Positions 1,463 to 20,034 of a stretch of 21,891 nucleotides of DNA are shown piece by piece. The stretch comes from a virus. Location of the stretch: IMG/VR virus record IMGVR_UViG_3300025695_000110, positions 1 to 21,891 of that record; one strand, given 5' to 3'. Made by a program: the position numbers and the translations under genes. Numbering within the stretch: the stretch's first letter is position 1; the number at the start of each line of letters is the position of its first letter. The notes below the pieces were generated by a model. It was not told the origin of the DNA, did not search any database, and saw only the letters and a program-made list of their open reading frames with translations.

Positions 1463-3232
1463 TTAAAGTATTATACTCCATGTACCTTTTGGATAATAGC
1501 CGTCAATGCTCTCAATCCACATATTATCGTTGTACACATACTGAACACCTGTATTGAGATTTGTTACAAATACCGGATCTATAAATTCACTAGCATCGTA
1601 TATAACTTGCCATTTAGATCCTGTCCATTCAACTATATCATTTTCATCAGCAAAGAAATCTGTTCCGTCTGTATTTTTCCAAGCATCTGCACCATCGTCA
1701 TTAAAATGCAATATATATTGTACTTTATTATCTGGAGTTACATTTTCGTCAAGTATAATTGATATTTGATTACCAATATTTTGTAAAGATGCACTAACAC
1801 TTTCTCCGTCAACGGTAACCTCTATACTTGTAACTTTATCTGCTAACCACCAAGATTGTTGATAAAAATATAATTTTTCCTCATCAGTCTTATAAAATAA
1901 ATCGTTTTTGTTTGGAGAACTAGGAAACGATATTCCACTGTCGACTCCGGCTGGTTTTTCTATATTGTTAATATAATAATCTACATATGTATCAATTCTG
2001 TTAGTAGTGCCTTGCGGTGTAATGTTTCTAACAGCAGCATTACCAATTGCATCTAGTACCAATAATCTAGCACCTGAAGTTTTTACACTTGTAGGATTGA
2101 ATGATCTAGGATTAATCACATAATCTACAGTTCCGTATTGAGTAGGATTTCGTGCCGGTCCTTCTATTAAAGTATTACTAGGCAGTGTATCTTCGTCGTA
2201 TGTAATATACAATGAAGTTGAATCATCTGGATCAATTTCGATTGTGCCTCTTACATTAGTGCTAAAATACGTTCTGCGTAATTCTATTTGACTAATGCCT
2301 GGTTCGTACTGCGCCGGCAATTCAGCTTCGACTACATCGATCCAGTGTGCATCTGGCGCGAATAATAATTTATTTGTAGCTAATTTTGCTAACGAGTCAG
2401 TAATATTAATACCATACTGTCTATACGATGTAATATGTGGATTAAGTTGAATACCTAGCCCTGTTTCACCGGTAGATTGCCCTGGTAGATATCCTTCTGG
2501 TGTTAATGCTGCTTCACTATCTGGATTAGGAGTAAAGCCGTCAAGCTCTATTGTACCTGTATCAGTATTAATAATACCTGTAACGATTTTTGTAATAATG
2601 CCCATTTTCTTGACCTTTGCAGGCGGCGAAATATAAATTGGCGCAGTAAATGACATTGTACAAATATCAATTTCGCTTTCAGTTCCAGCAGGAATACTTC
2701 TTGAACTAAATGTCATACTATCCATAAACAATGTTGTTAAACTAGTCCAGTCGACATAATTGTCGTTAGTTTGGAATTCTAAACTAGGATTAAACAACAT
2801 CAATATTTGTTCAAGTATTTGTAGTTTTTGATCTGTGCTTGTACTCCATAAATCAACATTTACACTTAACGTAAACGGATTAGGATGCAAGCGTTCAACA
2901 GTGTATCCTTTGGCTTGTGATGCTAGATAACTATTTGTTTCACTATCAAATTCTTTTTCTCTTAAATTTACTTTACTAACAAAACTACTATCGCTTGTAC
3001 GTGTACGATCCATTTCTAAACCGGTAATATAAACAGCCATACGCGGCGCACTAGGAATCTTGTTTTCGCTGTTGTCACGCATAATACTAGCAACTTGTCT
3101 AGTTAAATCTCCATATGCTACCGGAACTTGACGTAAATCACCGTCTCCATCTTTGTAACTAAAATTACTAAATGCTCTAACAATTTGCGTTACATATCTT
3201 CTTACTTGACCGTCATAAAAATATTGCATCAA
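1463..3232 (-). CDS. 15: Tail sheath stabiliser / tail terminator gp15, with long C-terminal extension
   Basis: In T4, gp15 forms the hexameric ring that caps the tail tube and sheath and joins the tail to the neck. The first ~215 residues follow T4 gp15 as recalled: YFYDGQVRRYVTQIVRAFSNF at the N-terminus, an RQVPVAYGD strand, a segment like MAVYITGLEMDRTR, then PNPFTLSVNVDLWS and ILEQILMLFNPSLEF. T4 gp15 is about 272 residues; this one is 589. The extra ~350 residues are beta-rich and include NDLFYKTDEEKLYFYQQSWW, a motif also found in gp14 and gp18 here, and end in further aromatic stretches (VEWTGSKWQVIYD, YNDNMWIES). The start overlaps the gp14 stop as ATGA, indicating translational coupling. 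Confidence 0.85.
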   Translation of the reverse strand: MMQYFYDGQVRRYVTQIVRAFSNFSYKDGDGDLRQVPVAYGDLTRQVASIMRDNSENKIPSAPRMAVYITGLEMDRTRTSDSSFVSKVNLREKEFDSETNSYLASQAKGYTVERLHPNPFTLSVNVDLWSTSTDQKLQILEQILMLFNPSLEFQTNDNYVDWTSLTTLFMDSMTFSSRSIPAGTESEIDICTMSFTAPIYISPPAKVKKMGIITKIVTGIINTDTGTIELDGFTPNPDSEAALTPEGYLPGQSTGETGLGIQLNPHITSYRQYGINITDSLAKLATNKLLFAPDAHWIDVVEAELPAQYEPGISQIELRRTYFSTNVRGTIEIDPDDSTSLYITYDEDTLPSNTLIEGPARNPTQYGTVDYVINPRSFNPTSVKTSGARLLVLDAIGNAAVRNITPQGTTNRIDTYVDYYINNIEKPAGVDSGISFPSSPNKNDLFYKTDEEKLYFYQQSWWLADKVTSIEVTVDGESVSASLQNIGNQISIILDENVTPDNKVQYILHFNDDGADAWKNTDGTDFFADENDIVEWTGSKWQVIYDASEFIDPVFVTNLNTGVQYVYNDNMWIESIDGYYPKGTWSIIL

Positions 3233-4398
3233 TTATCTGCCTTTGCTCTGAGAGCTTTACTTAATGCTTGTCTTTCTACAACATCTTCACCGCTTATTTC
3301 GTTGACTGTTGTATTATTAACAAACGTTCCTAGTTGTGTATTTCTGGTATCTGTATTTGATAATTCTGCTCTAACATTATCTTCTACTTTAATCCAGCCG
3401 CTTCCGCTGTATCTAAATAATCTATTAGGCAATAAATCAGTTCTTAGATAGTAATCGCCTTCCTCAGACAATTGAGGAAATCCTGAACCTACACCAAATG
3501 GTGCTCCGTTAGGAGGAATACCATCGCCTACTAAGTATCCAAGATATCCACTTGAAAGCGGCGTTTGAAAAACTATATCAGCAGTAATACCACTTGATGC
3601 ATCTATATCGTCTATGTCTACACTTACCAAACTAACACTTGCATCATCATTAACTTGAACTGTATAGAACTGTTGAGTTGAATATCCTGCATATTTTACA
3701 TCGTTGTTTGCTTGTGCTATTACTGCATTATTAATTTGCATTTCTTTTTCAAATGTAGACATAATATCTCTAAGAGTTTTGTCAGAATTTTCAGCAGCAG
3801 GCAAATCTAAAATATCTTTGTATTCCTGACCGTCATAAATTTGTTTTACTTTTAATCTGTAAAGATGTGGGTACCACGTTTGACTAAAGCCTTCGCTGGC
3901 TCTTGTAATATCCTCAATTACATAAAATCTTTTAAGTGCAATTTCTAAATCATTTGCTGCATATTCGTCAATCATATGAGGCAATTCAATTACATCTCCG
4001 GGCATAAGTTTTCTGCCTATTGTTTTAACACTACTGTTTATATGAACGGTAAGAAACAATGTGTCGTTGCTAAGAAAAAGACCAAATTGACTTAAATCAA
4101 AATCGTTGTCTTGAACGTTGTAATGTCCTCTAAGCACATAAACGTCTTTGTCATATTTTCTATCTCTGTTTTCAAGAAACAATAAATCTTGTATATTTGT
4201 TTCTTTAACAGAATCATATTGTGGTTGATCTGCGGTAGAATCAGCATCATCAGGATTTTTAGGCCCGATGTATTTGTGTATTACAAAATCCGTCCCGCCA
4301 ACTGTAAACATTTCATAGATAGTATTATCTAGAAATGTATAATCTTTTGATTTGTGTGGTCTATATAAACTTAGCTTTGGCATACGTATATTTAGCAT
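3229..4398 (-). CDS. 14: Neck protein gp14
   Basis: gp14 builds the phage neck between portal and tail. Evidence is the marine T4-like N-terminus (PKLSLYRP..KDY.F), the segment FGLFLSNDTLFLTVHINSS followed by GRKLMPGDVIELP and FYVIEDITRASEGFS...YPHLYRLKV, which matches the gp14 core, and its place immediately before gp15. At 389 residues it exceeds T4 gp14 (about 256). The additional C-terminal part contains GDYYLRTD...LFRYSGSGWIKVED (residues ~312-340), a module shared with gp15 and gp18. The ATG at 4398 lies 3 bases after an ATAAGTA box; an in-frame ATG at 4383, giving MPKLSLY, is at least as likely a start. Neither has a Shine-Dalgarno. It is divergent from gp13. Confidence 0.82.
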   Translation of the reverse strand: MLNIRMPKLSLYRPHKSKDYTFLDNTIYEMFTVGGTDFVIHKYIGPKNPDDADSTADQPQYDSVKETNIQDLLFLENRDRKYDKDVYVLRGHYNVQDNDFDLSQFGLFLSNDTLFLTVHINSSVKTIGRKLMPGDVIELPHMIDEYAANDLEIALKRFYVIEDITRASEGFSQTWYPHLYRLKVKQIYDGQEYKDILDLPAAENSDKTLRDIMSTFEKEMQINNAVIAQANNDVKYAGYSTQQFYTVQVNDDASVSLVSVDIDDIDASSGITADIVFQTPLSSGYLGYLVGDGIPPNGAPFGVGSGFPQLSEEGDYYLRTDLLPNRLFRYSGSGWIKVEDNVRAELSNTDTRNTQLGTFVNNTTVNEISGEDVVERQALSKALRAKADN

Positions 4399-4403
4399 AA
4401 ATA
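4397..4403 (+). promoter_or_regulatory. Late-promoter-like box ATAAATA before gp13
   Basis: ATAAATA lies 16 bases before the gp13 ATG, with the Shine-Dalgarno GGAGA at 4409-4413 between them. It matches the core of the T4 late promoter TATAAATA and overlaps a minus-strand ATAAGTA box (4402-4408) facing gp14, so the two divergent promoters would share bases. Confidence 0.55.
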
Positions 4404-4408
4404 CTTAT
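4402..4408 (-). promoter_or_regulatory. Late-promoter-like box ATAAGTA before gp14
   Basis: The minus strand reads ATAAGTA then TTT then the ATG at 4398. It overlaps the ATAAATA box that faces gp13 by two bases. If it works like T4 late promoters, transcription would start at or inside the first codons, which would favour the second ATG at 4383. Confidence 0.35.
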
Positions 4409-4419
4409 GGAGACAAACT

Positions 4420-5178
4420 ATGAGCAATACTACTGCATACCAAGAAATTTATGATTATGTTGAAACCTTTTTAGGCGGAGGCATGATCGATGTTGAATTA
4501 GATCCTATACATTATAAAACTGCATTAAGTAAATCTTTAAACAGATATCGTCAAAGAACTGAAAACAGTGTTGAAGAAAGTTACATTACTATTGCATTTG
4601 AACAAGATAAAAATGAATATACATTGCCTCAAGAAATTATTGAAGTGCGTAAAATTTATAGACGAAGTGTTGGTAGTAGATTAGGTGGAAGTGCTGACGG
4701 CGGTAGTTTGTTTGAACCATTTAACCTAGCATATACAAACACATACTTGTTAGCAGGCAGTGGTATAGGCGGTCTTGCTACATATGATATGTTTGCACAA
4801 CAACAAGAATTAGTAGGTAGAATGTTTGGATCGTTTATTGAATTTACATGGAATACTAGTACAAAAAAATTAACTATACTACAACGACCAAGAACAGATG
4901 AAGAAGTACTATTATGGTGTTACAATTATCGTCCCGACTTTGAATTGTTAAAAGATTATAAAGCAAATCAATGGGTAAAAGATTATACACTTGCAAGTTG
5001 TAAATATATGCTAGGGGAAGCTCGTAGTAAGTTTAGTACTATTGCAGGCCCTGGAGGCGGCACTACACTTAACGGTGACACACTGAAATCTGAAGCTCAA
5101 CAGGAAATGGAAAAACTAGATAACGAACTAGCAACAGCAATGGCTGGTGGCACAGGCTATAGTTTTATTATAGGTTGA
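4420..5178 (+). CDS. 13: Neck protein gp13
   Basis: gp13 is the head-completion/neck protein that joins gp14 at the portal end. The 252-residue product has the features recalled for marine T4-like gp13: an N-terminal helix (YDYVETFLGGGMIDVELDP), a strand region EYTLPQEIIEVRKIYRR, and a conserved C-terminal half with FTWNTSTKKLTILQRP, WCYNYRPDFELL and WVKDYTLASCKYMLGEARSKF, ending in a glycine-rich tail. It is shorter than T4 gp13 (about 309). It starts with a clear GGAGA Shine-Dalgarno 6 bases before the ATG. It lies back-to-back with gp14, whereas in T4 genes 13-14-15 run in one direction. Confidence 0.83.
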   Translation: MSNTTAYQEIYDYVETFLGGGMIDVELDPIHYKTALSKSLNRYRQRTENSVEESYITIAFEQDKNEYTLPQEIIEVRKIYRRSVGSRLGGSADGGSLFEPFNLAYTNTYLLAGSGIGGLATYDMFAQQQELVGRMFGSFIEFTWNTSTKKLTILQRPRTDEEVLLWCYNYRPDFELLKDYKANQWVKDYTLASCKYMLGEARSKFSTIAGPGGGTTLNGDTLKSEAQQEMEKLDNELATAMAGGTGYSFIIG

Positions 5179-5201
5179 CAAATGCCTGATCCTATTATAA
5201 T
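5175..5201 (+). promoter_or_regulatory. Sigma70-type promoter for the dNMP-kinase-like gene
   Basis: A perfect -35 TTGACA (5175-5180) is followed by a perfect -10 TATAAT (5196-5201). The 15-base spacer is short; TAATAT at 5198-5203 gives 17. The -35 overlaps the gp13 stop. Transcription would start around 5208, at the ATG (5210), and no Shine-Dalgarno is present, so the message may be leaderless. A host-polymerase (early) promoter fits a nucleotide-metabolism gene among late genes. Confidence 0.6.
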
Positions 5202-5209
5202 ATAATAAT

Positions 5210-5713
5210 ATGAAGAAAAAGTTATTGGTTATTGGCCACGGCCGACATGGTAAAGATACTGTGTGCGAAATATTACGTGATAAGTATGAATATAGTTTTG
5301 AGAGCAGTTCAAAGTTTTGCTCCAAGTTGTTTATCTACGAGCAGTTAAAGGACAAATATGGATACGATAATGAAGAACAGTGCTACGCTGACAGGCATAA
5401 TCACAGAGCAGAATGGTATGATGCTATCTGCAATTATAATATTCCTGATGCAGCGACTTTAGGAAGGGAAATGTTTGCAGCCTACGATATTTATTGTGGG
5501 CTTCGTAACAAGCGTGAATTTTTTGCTATGCAAAATACTGGCGTGTTTGATTATGTTATTTGGGTAGACCGTAGTATGCACCTTCCTCCTGAGTCAAAAG
5601 ACAGTATGAGTCTTGAACAATGGATGGCCGATTTTACAATTGATAACAATGGAACATTAGAAGAATTAGAATTTAATATTGATCAATTATATAGTTCTAA
5701 GTTAAATGCGTAG
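5210..5713 (+). CDS. Deoxynucleoside monophosphate kinase-like P-loop protein (gp1-like)
   Basis: The protein opens with a beta strand and P-loop, KLLVIGHGRHGKDT (Walker A GHGRHGKDT at residues 9-17), the form seen in phage dNMP kinases of the T4 gp1 type, which phosphorylate dNMPs to dNDPs for DNA synthesis. A second strand FDYVIWVDRS (around residue 115) looks like the Walker B/LID region. It has 167 residues against about 241 in T4 gp1, so it is a short version, and the specificity is uncertain. It stands alone between gp13 and gp18 with its own TTGACA/TATAAT promoter. Another P-loop kinase function is possible. Confidence 0.72.
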   Translation: MKKKLLVIGHGRHGKDTVCEILRDKYEYSFESSSKFCSKLFIYEQLKDKYGYDNEEQCYADRHNHRAEWYDAICNYNIPDAATLGREMFAAYDIYCGLRNKREFFAMQNTGVFDYVIWVDRSMHLPPESKDSMSLEQWMADFTIDNNGTLEELEFNIDQLYSSKLNA

Positions 5714-5736
5714 ATAATAGTCCAAAACCACCAATT

Positions 5737-5785
5737 TCTCCTCTGATCAGCTAAATAATAGTAGAAAGTATTACCCATGAGGAGA
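5737..5785 (+). promoter_or_regulatory. gp18 leader: anti-Shine-Dalgarno pairing element
   Basis: TCTCCTC (5737-5743) is exactly complementary to GAGGAGA (5779-5785), the gp18 Shine-Dalgarno. The late box CTAAATA lies between the two arms. RNA reading through from dNMP kinase could fold and hide the ribosome site, while RNA started at the late box would lack the 5' arm. Confidence 0.5.
5751..5757 (+). promoter_or_regulatory. Late-promoter-like box CTAAATA before gp18
   Basis: CTAAATA is one base off ATAAATA and is preceded by the palindrome CTGATCAG. It lies 35 bases before the gp18 ATG, leaving room for the strong Shine-Dalgarno GAGGAGA. Late promoter function is inferred from position. Confidence 0.45.
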
Positions 5786-5792
5786 CAAAGCA

Positions 5793-8700
5793 ATGGCACT
5801 AACATCACCTGGTGTTCAGGTTAGCGTAATAGACGAGAGTTTTTATACTCCGGCTGAACCTGGTACAACACCTATTATTTTTGTAGCAACAGCCGAAAAC
5901 AAACTAAACGGCGGCGGCACAGGTATAGCACCTGGTACATTAAAAGAAAACGCAGGTAAAGTTTACCTGATGACATCGCAGAGAGATCTAGTTGAAACAT
6001 TTGGAGATCCGACATTTATTACTGACGTAAATAATAATGTTGTACAAGGCGGTGAACAAAACGAATACGGATTACAAGCTGCATATAGTTATCTAGGCGT
6101 AAGCAATAGATCATATGTAGTAAGAGCAGACATTGACTTAAATAGTTTAAATGCAAGCTCAACACCAACAACTGCAAACCCAGAAGATGGTACATGGTGG
6201 CTAGATACACAAACAACAGAATGGGGCATTTTTGAATGGGACGGATCGGCTGCTACAACCGAAACCGGTCAAACATTTATCGCAAAGACTCCACGAGTAA
6301 TTACAAATGCTACTGACTTAATTGGCGGTGATGCAACTAACGCTCCTGGTAGCTGGGTTGGACAAAAAGGCGATTATGCAATAGTCGCAGTAACTAATGT
6401 AGTAAAATACTATTATAAAAATGTTAACGACAATTGGGTTTTAGTTGGCTCTCCAGACTGGAGTTCAAGTATTCCAACAGTTGAAGGTACAAATGCAATC
6501 AGTTCTACAATTGGAAACATTGGTGATACTTTCGTAATCAATGCTAGTGACAGCAGTGCCGAATCAGTACAAATTACTCTTACAGGAAACACATTAACAA
6601 GTCTAGTAAATGATATTAATAATGCAGCTATTGGTGGTGTGACAGCAGAAGCAAGAAACAACAAACTTGTATTATTAAATGATCGTAGCACAAGTGATAC
6701 AATCCAATTAGTTGACGGCGCAGGAACTCCTCTTTCAGCAGCTGGTATTGAAGAAGGATTTTATCTTGCTCCAAAAGCACAAATCAGTAAGCACACTGAT
6801 GTTCCTCTTTTTAAAGAAAACGACGACGATACTCGTCCAAGTGGAAGTGTTTGGATTAAAACAACAACACCAAACCTTGGTGCTGACTGGAGAGTAAAAC
6901 AGTTTAATGGCGAAACTGAAATTTGGAACAGAGCAGTATCTCCAATTTATAATTCTAATCACAGCGCAATTTACGCACTTGATAGATCAGGCGGCGGAGT
7001 AAATATTCCAGTTGGTACAGTGTTTATTCAGTCAAACGCAATCGAAAATGTAAACGACAATGCTAACTTTAAAGTCTTTGTAAAACGTGCAGGCGGCGCA
7101 ACTACAATTACTAGTAATAAAATTACTGCATCAACGTTTGCAGGTGGTTCTTACAATATAACACTACAAGAAAGTTTAAAATCTCAAGAAGCACTAGACA
7201 CAGCAAAAACAATAAGTTTTACAGCAGCAGGCCAAGCATCGGACGCACAAGAAATGGCAGCAGCAATTAACGCAGCTGGATTTACTAACGTTGTTGCAAG
7301 TGTTGATTCTCAAAATAGAATTACTATTTCGCATACAGTAGGCGGAGAAATTAGATTAACTGATACAGATAACGCATTTACATTTGCTGGATTTACTCCT
7401 TATAATGCAACTGCAAAAACTGGTACACAAAATCTTTATTGGCAGCCGGGCGAAACAGATAGCGACCCAGAGAAGCTATTAATTAGTCTTTGGTCTCCTT
7501 TAGTTTATACTGCAAGTGAAGATGCACCAACCGCATTAGCAGCTGACGGCGCATTATGGTATAGTAGCACAATTGACGAAGTTGATGTACTAGTACACAA
7601 CGGCTCAAACTGGGTTGGTATTAATCACTCGTCAAGCCCATATTATAATGTTGATAGTGCTCAATCACCAGATCCAGAAGGGCCGATTGTTAGTGCATCT
7701 GAGCCAGGCAACGGCGATCGTTCAGATAGTGGCAATTTAGTAACTGGCGACATTTGGGTTAGTACAGCAGACTTAGAAAATTATCCACAAATATACATTT
7801 ATAATGCTACACTAGCAAAATGGGTATTAATTGATAGTACAGATCAAACTACAGAAAATGGTATCCTATTTGCAGATGCACGTTATAATACAAGTGGAGC
7901 AAACAGTGGCGAAGCTGGCGATATTGTAGATCTAAGAACAAGTAACTATTTAGATCCGGATGCTCCAGATCCTGCACTATATCCAAAAGGTATGCTGTTA
8001 TGGAACTTACGTAGAAGCGGATTTAATGTAAGACGTTTTGAGCGTAATTATATTGATGTAAATGCTGATAACGAGCGTAACGGCGACGAAGCAATGGACG
8101 CATACTACCCACACCGTTGGGTAACTGAATCAGCTAACCAAGCAGATGGTTCGGGTACATTTGGACGTAAAGCACAGCGTAAAGTTGTTGTACAAGCATT
8201 ACAATCAATGATTAATAGTAATCAAGACATTAGAGACGACGAATCAAGAACATTTAACTTAATTGCATCACCAAGTTATCCAGAACTAATTGGCGAAATG
8301 ATTAGCTTAAACTTTGATAGAGGTTTAACTGCTTTTGTTGTAGGCGATAGTCCAATGAGACTTACTCCAGATGCAACTAGTTTAGAAAATTGGGCAACCA
8401 ACGTTGAACTAGCAGTTGAAGATAACGCAGACGGATTAGTAAGTCGAGACGAATACTTAGGTGTTTATTATCCAGCAGGATTTACAAGTGATAATGTAGG
8501 TAATAATGTTGTTGTTCCGGCATCGCATATGGTACTACGTACTTTTGCACTAAATGACCAAGTTGCTTATCCGTGGTTTGCGCCAGCAGGTACAAGACGC
8601 GGCGGAGTTACAAATGCTTCAAGTGTAGGTTATATTAACAACGAAGACGAATTTGTAAGTATTGCACTAAACGAAGGACAACGTGATACATTGTACAGAA

Positions 8701-9171: not shown

Positions 9172-9798
9172 ATGGCAATCTCAACACTAACAAAAATTTC
9201 GGTACCGTTGGCAAACGATAACAGCGCAAATAGCCAAGGTTTGCTAATGCCAAAATTACAATATCGTTTTAGAATTACACTAGAAAACTTTGGTGTAAGT
9301 GCTGAAACACAAGAACTTACAAAACAAGTTGTAGAAGCGTCTCGCCCTACACTAAGTTTTGATCCTATGACGCTTGATGTATATAATTCACGTGTATATC
9401 TTGCAGGTAAACACACATGGGATACTGTTTCGGTTACACTTAGAGATGATGTAAACGGTAACGTACAAAAATTAGTTGGTGAGCAATTACAGAAACAATT
9501 TGATTTCTTTGAACAGTCAAGTGCTGCTTCAGGAATTGACTATAAATTTACTCAGCGTATTGAAATCTTAGATGGCGGCAATGGAGTGAACACACCAAAC
9601 GTATTAGAAACATGGGAACTATACGGATGTTTCTTAACAAACGTTGATTATGGATCTCTAAACTATGCAAATAACGATGCTGTACAAGTAGCGTTAACAA
9701 TACAATACGATAATGCTATCCAAGCACCGAATGGTACAGGCGTAGGAGCTCCAGTTCCACGTAATACAAGTACACTTACAACAGGTGGCGGTAGCTAA
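9172..9798 (+). CDS. 19: Tail tube protein gp19
   Basis: gp19 polymerises into the inner tail tube through which DNA passes. The protein shows the tube-fold pattern: PKLQYRFRITLENFG (strand), LTKQVVEASRPTLSFDPMTLDVYNSRVYLAGKHTWDTVSVTLRDD (the conserved loop and strands), then VLETWELYGCFLTNVDYGSLNYANNDAVQVALTIQYDNA near the C-terminus. The length of 208 is somewhat more than the T4 protein (about 163). It follows gp18 as in T4 and has its own Shine-Dalgarno AAGGAGA and late box. The C-terminal ~25 residues are Gly/Thr-rich and probably flexible. A strong terminator follows, fitting high, self-contained expression. Confidence 0.95.
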   Translation: MAISTLTKISVPLANDNSANSQGLLMPKLQYRFRITLENFGVSAETQELTKQVVEASRPTLSFDPMTLDVYNSRVYLAGKHTWDTVSVTLRDDVNGNVQKLVGEQLQKQFDFFEQSSAASGIDYKFTQRIEILDGGNGVNTPNVLETWELYGCFLTNVDYGSLNYANNDAVQVALTIQYDNAIQAPNGTGVGAPVPRNTSTLTTGGGS

Positions 9799-9825
9799 AA
9801 AAGATAAGAGATTGTCAACAAGAAG

Positions 9826-9850
9826 AAGGAGCACGGTGCTCCTTTTTTTT
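9826..9850 (+). terminator. Rho-independent terminator after gp19
   Basis: AGGAGCAC (9827-9834) and GTGCTCCT (9836-9843) are perfect inverted repeats, likely folding with a 5-base ACGGT loop, followed by a run of T to 9850. This is the strongest terminator in the window. Confidence 0.9.
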
Positions 9851-9855
9851 GTGAG

Positions 9856-9862
9856 ATAAATA
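9856..9862 (+). promoter_or_regulatory. Late-promoter-like box ATAAATA before the tail-tube-like gene
   Basis: GATAAATA lies right after the gp19 terminator and only 4 bases before the ATG at 9867, with no Shine-Dalgarno. As the terminator isolates this gene from upstream transcription, a promoter is needed about here. Confidence 0.5.
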
Positions 9863-9866
9863 TAGT

Positions 9867-11186
9867 ATGTCCAGTTTTATAAAAAATTATTTTGATAACT
9901 TTAGCAATTCTTTAGGAAATCCTAAAGGTAATCTTGGCGATTTTGCACACGCAAGTGCTTTGTATATAAGAAACAATTTACGGCTAACACCTAAAGTTAA
10001 ATTCCTCTATCATGTAGTATTTGATGTTAACAGAACAGCATTGCTAGAATTAGGTGTATACGATCAGTTACAAAAAAATGAATTTAATTTACTTGTTGAA
10101 TCTGCTAGTATGCCTAGTTATACATTTGATACAAGTACATTAAATATGTATAATAGAAAAAAAGTTGTACAAACTAAGGTAAATTACGATCCTGTTGAAT
10201 TTGTTTTTCACGATGACAATGCAGGGTTAACTACATTATTATGGGAAAGCTACTTTAGATGGTATTATCAAGACCCTAATTATGCACAGACAACTAGCTT
10301 TGGACAACCAGATACATCTGTGCCATTACCATATAATAATTCTCCTGTAAATCATTATAAAGGAGAATTTTCAAATACTTTTAACCACGGACTTGACAGA
10401 AGACGTAGTAATCAAGTTCCGTTTTTTAATAGTATTACTATCCATCAGTTACACAGCACAAATGTTAATAATGTATATACGAGTGTTACTTTAATAAATC
10501 CTTTAATTGAATCATTTTCTCATGATAGAGTTGAACAAAGCACAAGTGATTTTATGACAAATACTATGCGAGTTGCATATGAATCTGTTACTTACGGTAG
10601 AGGAATAACTGGCAATGATTCTCCTGCCGGGTTTGCTAATCCTTCTCATTATGATGTTACACCAAGTCCGTTGTCAATCGAAGGCGGCGGCGTATCTAAT
10701 ATATTTGGGCGCGGCGGATTAGTTGACGGATTTACTAGTATCTTTAGAGATTTAGAAAACGGAAGATTTGATTTAGGTACAATTGCAAATATTAAAAATA
10801 CAATTGAAATTGCCAAAACGTTAGACATTGACAACATACCGGACATAATTAATAGTGCAGAAGGACAAGGAATACAAGCTGGAATTTTAGATCAATTAAT
10901 TTACGGTGCAATTAACGCTGTATTTCCTAACTCTAACAATACAGGACAGCTAACTAACACAACACAGTCGTCAGTTAATTTACAAGGATCACCTGCTTCG
11001 AGAAAAGAAAGAATCGATGCTTTACAAAACAATCAAGGATTATTAGACGCAGTTGGATTTCAAGTATTTAGATTAGACACAGGAACAACTAATTCAGGAA
11101 ATATACAGGATATGAAAGATATTTGGAATAGTTTAAGTCCAATTGGAAAAGAAGAATATTATCAAAAGGCGTTAGATCAAGCATGA
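9867..11186 (+). CDS. Tail-tube-like virion structural protein
   Basis: The 439-residue product has, in its N-terminal half, the layout of tube-fold proteins: KFLYHVVFDVNR, then LVESASMPSYTFDTSTLNMYNRKKVVQTKVNYDPVEFVFHDD, then LLWESYFRWYYQDP, and later FNSITIHQLHS plus VTLINPLIESFSHDRVEQS. The central part parallels gp19 (DVYNSR...TVSVTLRDD). Similar proteins are recalled as unnamed structural proteins of marine T4-like phages; a tube-baseplate junction role like gp48 or gp54 is possible but not shown. The C-terminal ~180 residues are glycine/asparagine-rich with short helices and look separate. A TGA directly upstream in frame (9852) fixes the start near 9867. The stop overlaps the next ATG (ATGA). 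Confidence 0.65.
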   Translation: MSSFIKNYFDNFSNSLGNPKGNLGDFAHASALYIRNNLRLTPKVKFLYHVVFDVNRTALLELGVYDQLQKNEFNLLVESASMPSYTFDTSTLNMYNRKKVVQTKVNYDPVEFVFHDDNAGLTTLLWESYFRWYYQDPNYAQTTSFGQPDTSVPLPYNNSPVNHYKGEFSNTFNHGLDRRRSNQVPFFNSITIHQLHSTNVNNVYTSVTLINPLIESFSHDRVEQSTSDFMTNTMRVAYESVTYGRGITGNDSPAGFANPSHYDVTPSPLSIEGGGVSNIFGRGGLVDGFTSIFRDLENGRFDLGTIANIKNTIEIAKTLDIDNIPDIINSAEGQGIQAGILDQLIYGAINAVFPNSNNTGQLTNTTQSSVNLQGSPASRKERIDALQNNQGLLDAVGFQVFRLDTGTTNSGNIQDMKDIWNSLSPIGKEEYYQKALDQA

Positions 11187-13655: not shown

Positions 13656-14573
13656 ATGTTAACAGAACAAGAGATCTTACAAGAAAAAGAACAACTTAAT
13701 GAGGTTGCACCATTACTAGCATTTTTGTTTGGTATATTTGCAAAAGCAGGTTACGACAGAAACCAGGCAGCACAAGCAGCTAGAGCAGCAGCCGCAGCAG
13801 CAGAACAACAAGCACCAGGCGCTGCTACCGCTGTAACACAAACTGGACAACCAAATCCACAAGCAGCCGCAGGTAACGGTAATGGATATATTTTAGACAA
13901 TAGAGAACGTATTACTAGAGGTCCTCGTGTTAGTGCGATGCAAGCAGCATTAGGAATGCCATCTAATGAACAAGATGGTATGTTTGGTCCTAAGACTACA
14001 GCAGCAGTAAAAGAATTTCAAAGGTCTATGGGACTAAGACAAGATGGTATTGTAGGTCCTAACACAATGGCAGCAATGCAAAGAAGAGCTGCAAGTGCAG
14101 GAGAAACACCAGGTAATCCAGTTGATGACGGTGGATTAGGTCAACGTCCGTACCAATACGCAAGTAAAGAAAATACAGGAAATAAAATGAACGAAGAAAT
14201 TACAATTTCAGGAGATGCAGAATCGTTAATACGTATGATGCAACTTGCCGGCGCCGACGGTGCTAAGGCAGTAGACGCTGGCGATATTAGCCAAGGTTCA
14301 AAACCTTGTTCGGCTTGCGGAGAAGTACATAGTGAACATGGGTGCGGAAATCGCAATGGCGATCTTGCACGTAGTATTGCAATGATGGCAGACGAAGACT
14401 GGGATAATTCGCCAGACGAAGATATTAAAGATTTTGAAGCAACTCCGCCTACAAATGATTTAAATAAAGCTAAAAAATCATATCCAAAAGTTGCTGGTGG
14501 AGATAATCCAATGGCGTTAGAAAATAATCTACGTGCTAAATTATCAGATGCACTTGCTAAAAAGAAAAAATAA
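13656..14573 (+). CDS. Head-associated-like protein with peptidoglycan-binding domain and Cys/His cluster
   Basis: 305 residues in four parts. (1) N-terminal helix with several possible gp21-type sites (LTE at 2-4, LQE at 8-10, LNE at 14-16), then an Ala/Gln-rich stretch (35-75). (2) Residues ~88-145 look like a PG_binding_1 domain: GPRVSAMQAALGMPSNEQDGMFGPKTTAAVKEFQRSMGL, then QDGIVGPNTMAAMQ. (3) EITISGDAESLIRMMQLAG, a motif recalled from other marine T4-like virion proteins, followed by C218-x2-C221-x3-H225-x2-H228-x-C230, a likely zinc site. (4) an acidic linker and the C-terminal NPMALENNLRAKLSDAL. It has a strong AGGAGG Shine-Dalgarno. No catalytic lysin domain is seen. A virion role is inferred. 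Confidence 0.6.
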   Translation: MLTEQEILQEKEQLNEVAPLLAFLFGIFAKAGYDRNQAAQAARAAAAAAEQQAPGAATAVTQTGQPNPQAAAGNGNGYILDNRERITRGPRVSAMQAALGMPSNEQDGMFGPKTTAAVKEFQRSMGLRQDGIVGPNTMAAMQRRAASAGETPGNPVDDGGLGQRPYQYASKENTGNKMNEEITISGDAESLIRMMQLAGADGAKAVDAGDISQGSKPCSACGEVHSEHGCGNRNGDLARSIAMMADEDWDNSPDEDIKDFEATPPTNDLNKAKKSYPKVAGGDNPMALENNLRAKLSDALAKKKK

Positions 14574-18643: not shown

Positions 18644-18658
18644 GTGTATGAACACTAT
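18641..18658 (+). promoter_or_regulatory. Hairpin presenting the start codon in its loop
   Basis: ATAGTG (18641-18646) and CACTAT (18653-18658) are perfect inverted repeats; the six-base loop TATGAA holds the ATG at 18648-18650. No Shine-Dalgarno is present. A second in-frame ATG follows at 18657. Confidence 0.4.
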
Positions 18659-19346
18659 GTATGTATACGGTGATAGCTTCTCTGATCCTAATCACAAGTT
18701 TGGTGTAGTAAAACCATATTTTTGGATTACTGAATTAGAAAAATATTTTGAAGTACATAATTTTTCTATAAAGGGATCAGGTCCGCAATACCAACTTAAT
18801 TGTTTAATCAATACTATTGAAAATACCGATCCTTCAAAACTTAAACAAAGCAATATGATATTTTTTATGTCTGACATTAATAGACACTGGTGGAATTTTA
18901 TGGAACCGTCAGACCAGTACCTTTATGCACCTATTTTATTTAATCATAAAGCTAATACCAAAGAAGCTGCTGAAAAAATTTTAAAATATAGATCATATAA
19001 AGAATGGTTAAAAAACTATGACCGATATACAGGAATGTCTGAAAATTACAATATAACAAATGTTATTAATAACATATATGCTTTTAGTAAGTTTTTTAAT
19101 AAAACATTATTTTGGCCTATATTTAATAATGTTCCTGATTATTTAAAAAAATATAATACTAGAGAATTTAATATAGTACCTAAATTATTAAACGATATTA
19201 GTAGTAACGAAAAGATATCAGATAATCAAAAAAACATGCACTTACATAAAAAAAATCATTTAATTATGCAAGATGAAATATATTTATGGATGAAAAAGAA
19301 TTACACGATAAATGTAAAAAACTTTAAGGGTAATATAGATGAGTAA
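18648..19346 (+). CDS. SGNH-hydrolase-like protein, copy 1
   Basis: 232 residues. MYVYGDSFSD (catalytic-type Ser10) is the GDS block I of SGNH/GDSL hydrolases, and IKGSGPQYQLN corresponds to the Gly block. FFMSDINRHWW takes the place of the GxND block. At the C-terminus MHLHKKNHLIM aligns with CPNHLSLKNHKIM of copy 2, but the acidic residue that precedes the His in copy 2 is a Gln here, so activity is uncertain. Family members remove acyl or acetyl groups from sugars or lipids; the target is unknown. It overlaps copy 2 by 8 bases and is clearly its paralogue (same GDS, GSGPQ, and FF.SD landmarks in order). Very A+T-rich. Start could also be the ATG at 18657. Confidence 0.6.
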   Translation: MNTMYVYGDSFSDPNHKFGVVKPYFWITELEKYFEVHNFSIKGSGPQYQLNCLINTIENTDPSKLKQSNMIFFMSDINRHWWNFMEPSDQYLYAPILFNHKANTKEAAEKILKYRSYKEWLKNYDRYTGMSENYNITNVINNIYAFSKFFNKTLFWPIFNNVPDYLKKYNTREFNIVPKLLNDISSNEKISDNQKNMHLHKKNHLIMQDEIYLWMKKNYTINVKNFKGNIDE

Positions 19347-20034
19347 ACCTTTACTTTGGATACTTGGCGATAGTTATGGAGAAAATGTTAAATCAATCTC
19401 TAAATGGAAAAATATGTGGACATGGCCACAAGAAATTACTAGGATATTTGATGTTGAAAATTTTGCAATAGCTGGATCGGGTCCACAAACACAAATAGAA
19501 TATTTTTTAAATAATGCAAAAGATAGAGAATTAGAATACTGTTCGGATATTAATGTAATATTTTTTGTAAGTGACCCAGCACGAATAAATTTTAATTTTT
19601 ATCAAACACCTTTTCATCAGACTTATCCAAAAGTATTATTAGACAACCCAACCAAAATAGAACTTGATTGGAAAGAATATTATAAAGATAAAAATAAATT
19701 TATTATGAATTACTTTAAGTATATTGATATTATGCCAGTATACGAAACAGAAAAGTATATATCTATATTAAAAATGTATAGTAAGTTTTTTAAAAAAATT
19801 CTTGTGTTTAATTGTTTTCAGTATACAGACGATACTCTAGCAACAAGCATAAATGATGAAAAATTTCATCTTATTAACAATCCAATGATTAATATTAATA
19901 ATGATCCTGAAAAGTTTTTTGATTGTCCTAATCATTTAAGTTTAAAAAATCATAAAATTATGTACAGTCAGCTCGTTGGACATTTTTTAAACAATCAAAA
20001 TCTAATGCATCGTAAGTTTTTGAGAAATGATTAA
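19339..20034 (+). CDS. SGNH-hydrolase-like protein, copy 2
   Basis: 231 residues with block I LWILGDSYGEN (Ser12), FAIAGSGPQTQIEYFLNNA as the Gly block, VIFFVSDPARINF in the third position, and FDCPNHLSLKNHKIM near the end, where Asp and His could complete the catalytic set. This copy keeps more of the expected residues than copy 1, so it is the better candidate for an active esterase or deacetylase, for example on surface glycans (inference). No signal peptide is visible, so it would act in the cytoplasm or in the virion. It begins within copy 1 with an AAGGG Shine-Dalgarno in that gene's last codons, implying coupled expression. Confidence 0.65.
   Translation: MSKPLLWILGDSYGENVKSISKWKNMWTWPQEITRIFDVENFAIAGSGPQTQIEYFLNNAKDRELEYCSDINVIFFVSDPARINFNFYQTPFHQTYPKVLLDNPTKIELDWKEYYKDKNKFIMNYFKYIDIMPVYETEKYISILKMYSKFFKKILVFNCFQYTDDTLATSINDEKFHLINNPMININNDPEKFFDCPNHLSLKNHKIMYSQLVGHFLNNQNLMHRKFLRND

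Follow-up and report, generated by a model that had tools for sequence, protein, structure and literature searches.

A short tryptophan-rich module in the neck, tail-terminator and sheath proteins of a probable jumbo myophage

The neck, tail-terminator and sheath proteins encoded in one stretch of viral DNA (the window, 21,891 nucleotides) carry short tryptophan-rich segments, which raises the question of whether these are copies of a single module and, if so, how old the copies are and what they might do in the particle. A preliminary description had listed six such segments, and translation returns each peptide in its place: EEGDYYLRTDLLPNRLFRYSGSGWIKVED in gp14 (3379-3465, minus strand), NKNDLFYKTDEEKLYFYQQSWWLADK in gp15 (1835-1912, minus strand) and four segments of gp18, all on the plus strand (6186-6251, 6840-6935, 7545-7625 and 7743-7838). 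The consensus, P-x(3-5)-G-[DT]-x-[WF]-x-x-T-x(5-12)-[LI]-[YF]-x-[YWF]-[ND]-G-x(0-4)-W, spans about 30 residues. To the original six we add a fifth copy in gp18 (module B) and two further segments in gp15 (B and C; Table 1).

Table 1. Proteins, modules and inserted domains in the window (positions in nucleotides of the window, aa in residues of the protein).
Feature	Positions	Strand	Evidence
gp15, tail terminator/sheath stabiliser	1463..3229	-	PF16724 (T4-gp15_tss) E 1.5e-22, aa 4-223
gp15 W-rich segment C, aa 552-586, weakly module-like	1475..1579	-	81/91 homologues; fibre profile E 1.7e-4
gp15 W-rich segment B, aa 517-550, weakly module-like	1583..1684	-	82/91 homologues; fibre profile E 4.4e-4
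gp15 module A, aa 433-466, clade-specific insertion	1835..1936	-	19/91 homologues; hhalign to gp14 2.4e-6
gp14, neck/virion structural protein, 389 aa	3229..4398	-	phrog_11591 E 1.4e-90
gp14 module, aa 308-342	3373..3477	-	17/17 homologues; pLDDT 73-80
gp18, tail sheath, 1103 aa	5793..9104	+	PF17482 E 2.5e-16; phrog_10581 E 3e-233
gp18 module A, aa 122-152	6156..6248	+	kept in 16/16 homologues; hhalign A-D 2.5e-6
gp18 module B, aa 188-224, weak fifth copy	6354..6464	+	three strands, fair confidence; similarity weak, E 4.8e-3
Flagellin/FliD D2-like domain 1, gp18 aa 225-332	6465..6788	+	VIA Z 10.8
gp18 module C, aa 336-384	6798..6944	+	hhalign C-E 1.8e-6; strands 353-357/367-372/377-382
Flagellin/FliD D2-like domain 2, gp18 aa 431-545	7083..7427	+	FliD model E 7e-5; VIA Z 6.9
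gp18 module D, aa 577-612	7521..7628	+	hhalign A-D 2.5e-6; low model confidence
gp18 module E, aa 636-684	7698..7844	+	strands 654-657/666-671/676-681; hhalign C-E 1.8e-6

Judged by the sheath, the isolates closest to the window are all jumbo phages, namely Sinorhizobium phage Phosso, Agrobacterium phage Atu_ph07 and Pseudomonas phage PA5oct, and its IMG/VR relatives include contigs as long as 275 kb and 382 kb, which makes it probable that the 21.9 kb record is one piece of a jumbo myophage genome. Its gp18 is a T4-type tail sheath, matching the sheath C-terminal domain (PF17482) above the cut-off, and residues 468-649 of T4 gp18 align with it (E 1.3e-39). T4 gp14 matches the window gp14 weakly in sequence (E 0.074) and its chains score VIA Z 4.4-4.6 against the gp14 model, level with unrelated rows; the gene order, with gp13 and gp15 as neighbors, fits the T4 neck protein. 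The gp15 reading frame is listed to 3232 and has an ATG at 3229 that overlaps the gp14 stop (3229-3232), the two genes forming a unit (1463-4398) on the strand opposite gp13 and gp18. In the PA5oct record, the homologues of gp13, gp14, gp15 and gp18 are flagged ESI-MS/MS. The earlier statement that the segments lie in parts absent from T4 is consistent with our alignments, in which T4 gp18 covers only residues 904-1098 of its counterpart and T4 gp15 only residues 1-151, and with the gp14 module (308-342) lying beyond the 256 residues of T4 gp14. The whole T4 genome gave no match to a broader module profile.

Homologues were gathered from 100 loci (2118 ORFs) and aligned. At E<0.01, a module-family profile matched 214 domains in gp18, 89 in gp14 and 19 in gp15 among these ORFs, with no match at E<1 in their reversed or shuffled copies; since the profile includes rows from the window and its near relatives, this result measures specificity and is not an independent discovery. 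Profile-profile comparison (hhalign) linked gp14 with gp15A (2.4e-6), gp18 C with E (1.8e-6) and gp18 A with D (2.5e-6), and across the groups gp14 with gp18A (1e-3) and gp15A with gp18E (1.6e-3), these E-values being those of single comparisons between segments picked by eye beforehand. All five pairs outscored every pairing of a module with a non-module window from the same proteins (378/378, background maximum 15.3). The similarity among the segments clearly exceeds that in the shuffled, reversed and in-protein controls, and the claim of a shared module stands. Single-family HMMs mostly failed to detect gp18 from gp14/gp15 or the reverse and are not reliable for this purpose. Because the links within each group are strong and the direct links across groups weaker, sequence comparison supports well the homology of the gp14 and gp15 copies, and that among the gp18 copies, whereas homology between the two groups, though likely, stops short of proof.

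Pfam and NCBIfam scans of the modules and of the whole proteins revealed no family covering the module, and profile searches of the PDB gave partial matches only (E 0.09 or worse) and no solved structure containing it. With single modules, tblastn against phage records found few matches outside close relatives, those in Geobacillus, Vibrio and Roseobacter phages having E-values of 0.02-0.2, and a literature text search for the motif strings returned no papers. DUF2793 (PF10983), considered as a candidate, has no match in the window proteins, and the Phosso fibre reaches only 16.9 bits against a cut-off of 27. The module is real and absent from Pfam; it is new as a named thing, while its kind, that of small accessory virion modules, is known.

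The module had been described as mobile, which holds for the gp15 copy (module A) only, that is for one of the six copies. This copy occurs in 19 of 91 homologues and, in a tree of the gp15 core, marks one clade (support 100/100), which is surrounded by lineages that lack it; it is thus a single, recent gain in one clade. A recent duplication of the gp14 module into gp15 was judged unlikely, the two being only about 30% identical. In contrast, every one of the 17 distinct gp14 homologues has the gp14 copy, and gp18 copies A, C, D and E occur in 16 of 16, including PA5oct and Atu_ph07. Among distant jumbo sheaths, copies are found at corresponding positions in SCTP-2 and Vibrio 2.275 and remain recognisable, if weaker and partial, in RaK2, CBB and GAP32; the T4 sheath has none. 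In copy A the third-strand tryptophan is replaced in the window phage and retained in PA5oct and SCTP-2. Being constant in gp14 and fixed across sheaths from phages of very different hosts, these copies are not mobile on a recent scale. Most of them may well have been fixed before the jumbo-phage lineages split, with the gp15 copy following later in one clade, a history that we hold to be somewhat probable jointly with the functional explanation given below.

When the profile was run against the whole records of the relatives, it picked up not only gp14 and gp18 but also one or two copies in fibre- or collar-type proteins, at about residues 57-135. These are clear in four of the proteins (those of Phosso, of Atu_ph07 and of the contigs of 275 kb and 382 kb, E down to 9.8e-9), a tail protein of PA5oct matching weakly (E 0.037), and two of the module-bearing fibre proteins contain a Collar domain (PF07484). 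The copies, one or two per protein, read G-[DQ]-x-W-x-x-T ... [LI]-[YK]-x-[YF]-[ND]-G-x-x-W and follow the N-terminus, often in tandem, whereas in the window the module forms part of neck, terminator and sheath proteins. A fibre-only profile matches gp14 (2.3e-8), gp15A (5.2e-7) and gp18 A, C, D and E (4.5e-5 to 2.4e-8), a link between the families that is partly circular because the fibre copies were themselves found with a mixed profile. The fibre copies also match stretches in about 30 PHROGs, some of them minor head, minor tail or tail fibre families, with many of the matches weak. Module-length matches (E 4e-7 to 2e-4) fall in phrog_8309, 15511, 1786, 20787 and 9729, which are mostly unnamed and whose matching stretch carries no common annotation; the window copies themselves match PHROGs only weakly (phrog_8309, E 0.27). 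In four relatives (L084, L087, L089 and L090) an ORF of 348 aa (e.g., L087:8547-9590, minus strand) contains a canonical copy, GNLWLDTNTGILYVYFNDGSSSQW (E 1.1e-8). A fibre copy also aligns weakly (E 0.082) with residues 614-641 of phrog_211, the head-tail adaptor Ad2 (gp13) family, upstream of the gp13-like part (723-964), a hint that some gp13 proteins may carry the module too.

A beta-meander as short and aromatic as this one could have several origins, and the likeness between the two groups might therefore be convergent. Aromatic meanders with G-D and N-G turns would arise repeatedly in beta-rich virion proteins, and the gp14/gp15 and gp18 groups would be non-homologous, while the internal copies of gp18 would still be true repeats and those of gp14 and gp15 would share a single origin. 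The failure of single-family HMMs to bridge the groups, direct hhalign values of only about 1e-3 and the occurrence of the motif in many unrelated PHROGs are all in line with this reading. However, G-D, W, T, Y, G and W succeed one another with the same spacing across the families, the best cross-protein pairs lie above every background pair, and the gp15 copy was inserted as a ready-made unit. Taken as a whole, we regard convergence as a minority possibility, and common descent of all the copies as the preferred reading.

The AlphaFold2 models are poor overall (mean pLDDT 50 for gp18 and 45 for gp14), but within the gp14 model the module is the best-predicted region (block pLDDT 73-80), as expected for a self-contained unit, and has strands at residues 316-319, 326-330 and 335-340. 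The same three-strand pattern is seen in gp18 modules B, C and E, with A and D modelled at low confidence. Instead of the beta-hairpin proposed in the preliminary description, the module is thus predicted, with moderate model confidence, to be a three-stranded antiparallel beta-meander. Aromatic residues occupy their column in 99% of cases in strand 1, in 61 and 77% at two positions of strand 2 and in 99% in strand 3 where it is present, and the glycine of the entry turn reaches 92%. An Ig-like accessory domain, i.e., a beta-sandwich of about 80-100 residues, was rejected as an identity for these modules of about 30 residues and three predicted strands, which have no Ig match in Pfam. The lists of structural matches likewise contained nothing Ig-like for the modules, although such an absence carries no weight as evidence.

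Two domains of a different kind are inserted between the sheath modules. The first resembles FlaA of V. cholerae (VIA Z 10.8, rmsd 2.4, 95 residues aligned) and FliD (Z 10.3), the second FliC of P. aeruginosa (VIA Z 6.9, rmsd 2.8, 93 residues aligned), and the two resemble each other (E 5.6e-5). Flagellin_IN (PF07196) matches the second insert at E 8.8e-6 and 21 bits, under its cut-off of 22.7, and passes the cut-off in the sheaths of Phosso and Atu_ph07. Foldseek found no match for the gp18 model in the PDB at E<0.001, and the flagellin matches were confirmed via VIA-align. The likeness to Flagellin_IN/FliD D2 domains in fold and sequence concerns the two inserts (225-332 and 431-545) and not the W modules. 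The slots used differ between phages, being B-C and C-D in the window, A-B and B-C in Phosso and Atu_ph07 and C-D only in PA5oct. The W modules are the fixed frame of the sheath and the flagellin-type domains its changeable part. This arrangement recalls the accessory domains of large tail sheaths, which are beta-rich additions separating one half of the sheath core from the other, as presented in PMC9230969, where the Atu_ph07 sheath is listed with 5+ domains; that paper stresses Ig-like sandwiches, and its available portion mentions neither a W-rich module nor flagellin-type domains.

What, then, might the module do? The explanation to which we lean, though only somewhat, is that every segment is a copy of a single small virion module, which would serve as an aromatic-cored bracing or joint element. 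Strand 1 would contribute W or F, strand 2 Y, F or W and strand 3 W, with G-D at the entry turn and [ND]-G at a second turn. In gp18 the module would mark the joints of the added region of the sheath, with flagellin-type domains inserted between these joints; in gp14 and gp15 it would be part of extensions to the neck and tail-terminator cores, and in the fibres of relatives it would sit just past the N-terminus. Placement on the outer surface of neck and tail, as originally proposed, is plausible because the modules sit in regions added to T4-like cores. Between the two functions suggested earlier, glycan binding or particle stability, stability would be the better fit. Accessory domains of large sheaths are thought to stabilise the tail or aid adhesion (PMC9230969).

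Glycan or cell-surface binding, in which exposed aromatic residues would bind host polysaccharide weakly, as proposed for virion Ig-like domains, draws on the richness of the module in aromatics, its position in added sheath regions and the role in adhesion suggested for accessory sheath domains (PMC9230969). But the same aromatics are kept whether the phages infect Pseudomonas, rhizobia, Klebsiella or marine hosts, and the fibre copies are N-terminal, presumably virion-proximal and away from the expected receptor tip, both of which argue against a host-tuned sugar site. Pfam and NCBIfam scans gave no match to a carbohydrate-binding family; no evidence supports this part of the earlier suggestion, which we consider quite unlikely. 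Alternatively, modules of fibre, neck and sheath might pair through contacts between their beta-sheets and in that way keep parts of the particle joined. The C-terminal region of T4 gp14 (aa 178-256) docks on gp15 (PMC12270204), so that modules occur in proteins that are adjacent in T4, and others lie near the fibre N-terminus; yet tandem copies within one protein can pair with themselves, and such a docking clip appears to us very doubtful. Its broadest form, in which large contractile phages in general would use the module as a docking clip that pairs edge to edge and also as the joint for flagellin-type domain swaps, so that one small fold would hold the outer particle together, is the most improbable of these readings.

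The unnamed module in neck, terminator, sheath and fibre proteins offers a handle for annotating many virion proteins of large phages now labelled 'unknown', and it separates the fixed part of giant tail sheaths (W modules) from the exchanged part (flagellin-type domains).

Several other features of the window were noted. Directly upstream of the sheath gene lies a probable deoxynucleoside monophosphate kinase gene (5210-5713); according to record annotation, a kinase gene also adjoins the sheath gene in PA5oct, RaK2, GAP32 and CBB and lies one gene further upstream in Phosso. Two successive tail-tube-type genes (9172-11186; phrog_4542 and phrog_13438/4542) are found likewise in PA5oct, Phosso and Atu_ph07. 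Within the structural/packaging region, an ORF at 13656-14573 encodes a peptidoglycan-binding domain (PF01471, E 2.7e-15). Finally, two adjacent ORFs of similar length at 18648-20034, for which Pfam gave no match, each contain G-D-S-[FY] near the start and G-S-G-P-Q, and are possibly tandem duplicates.
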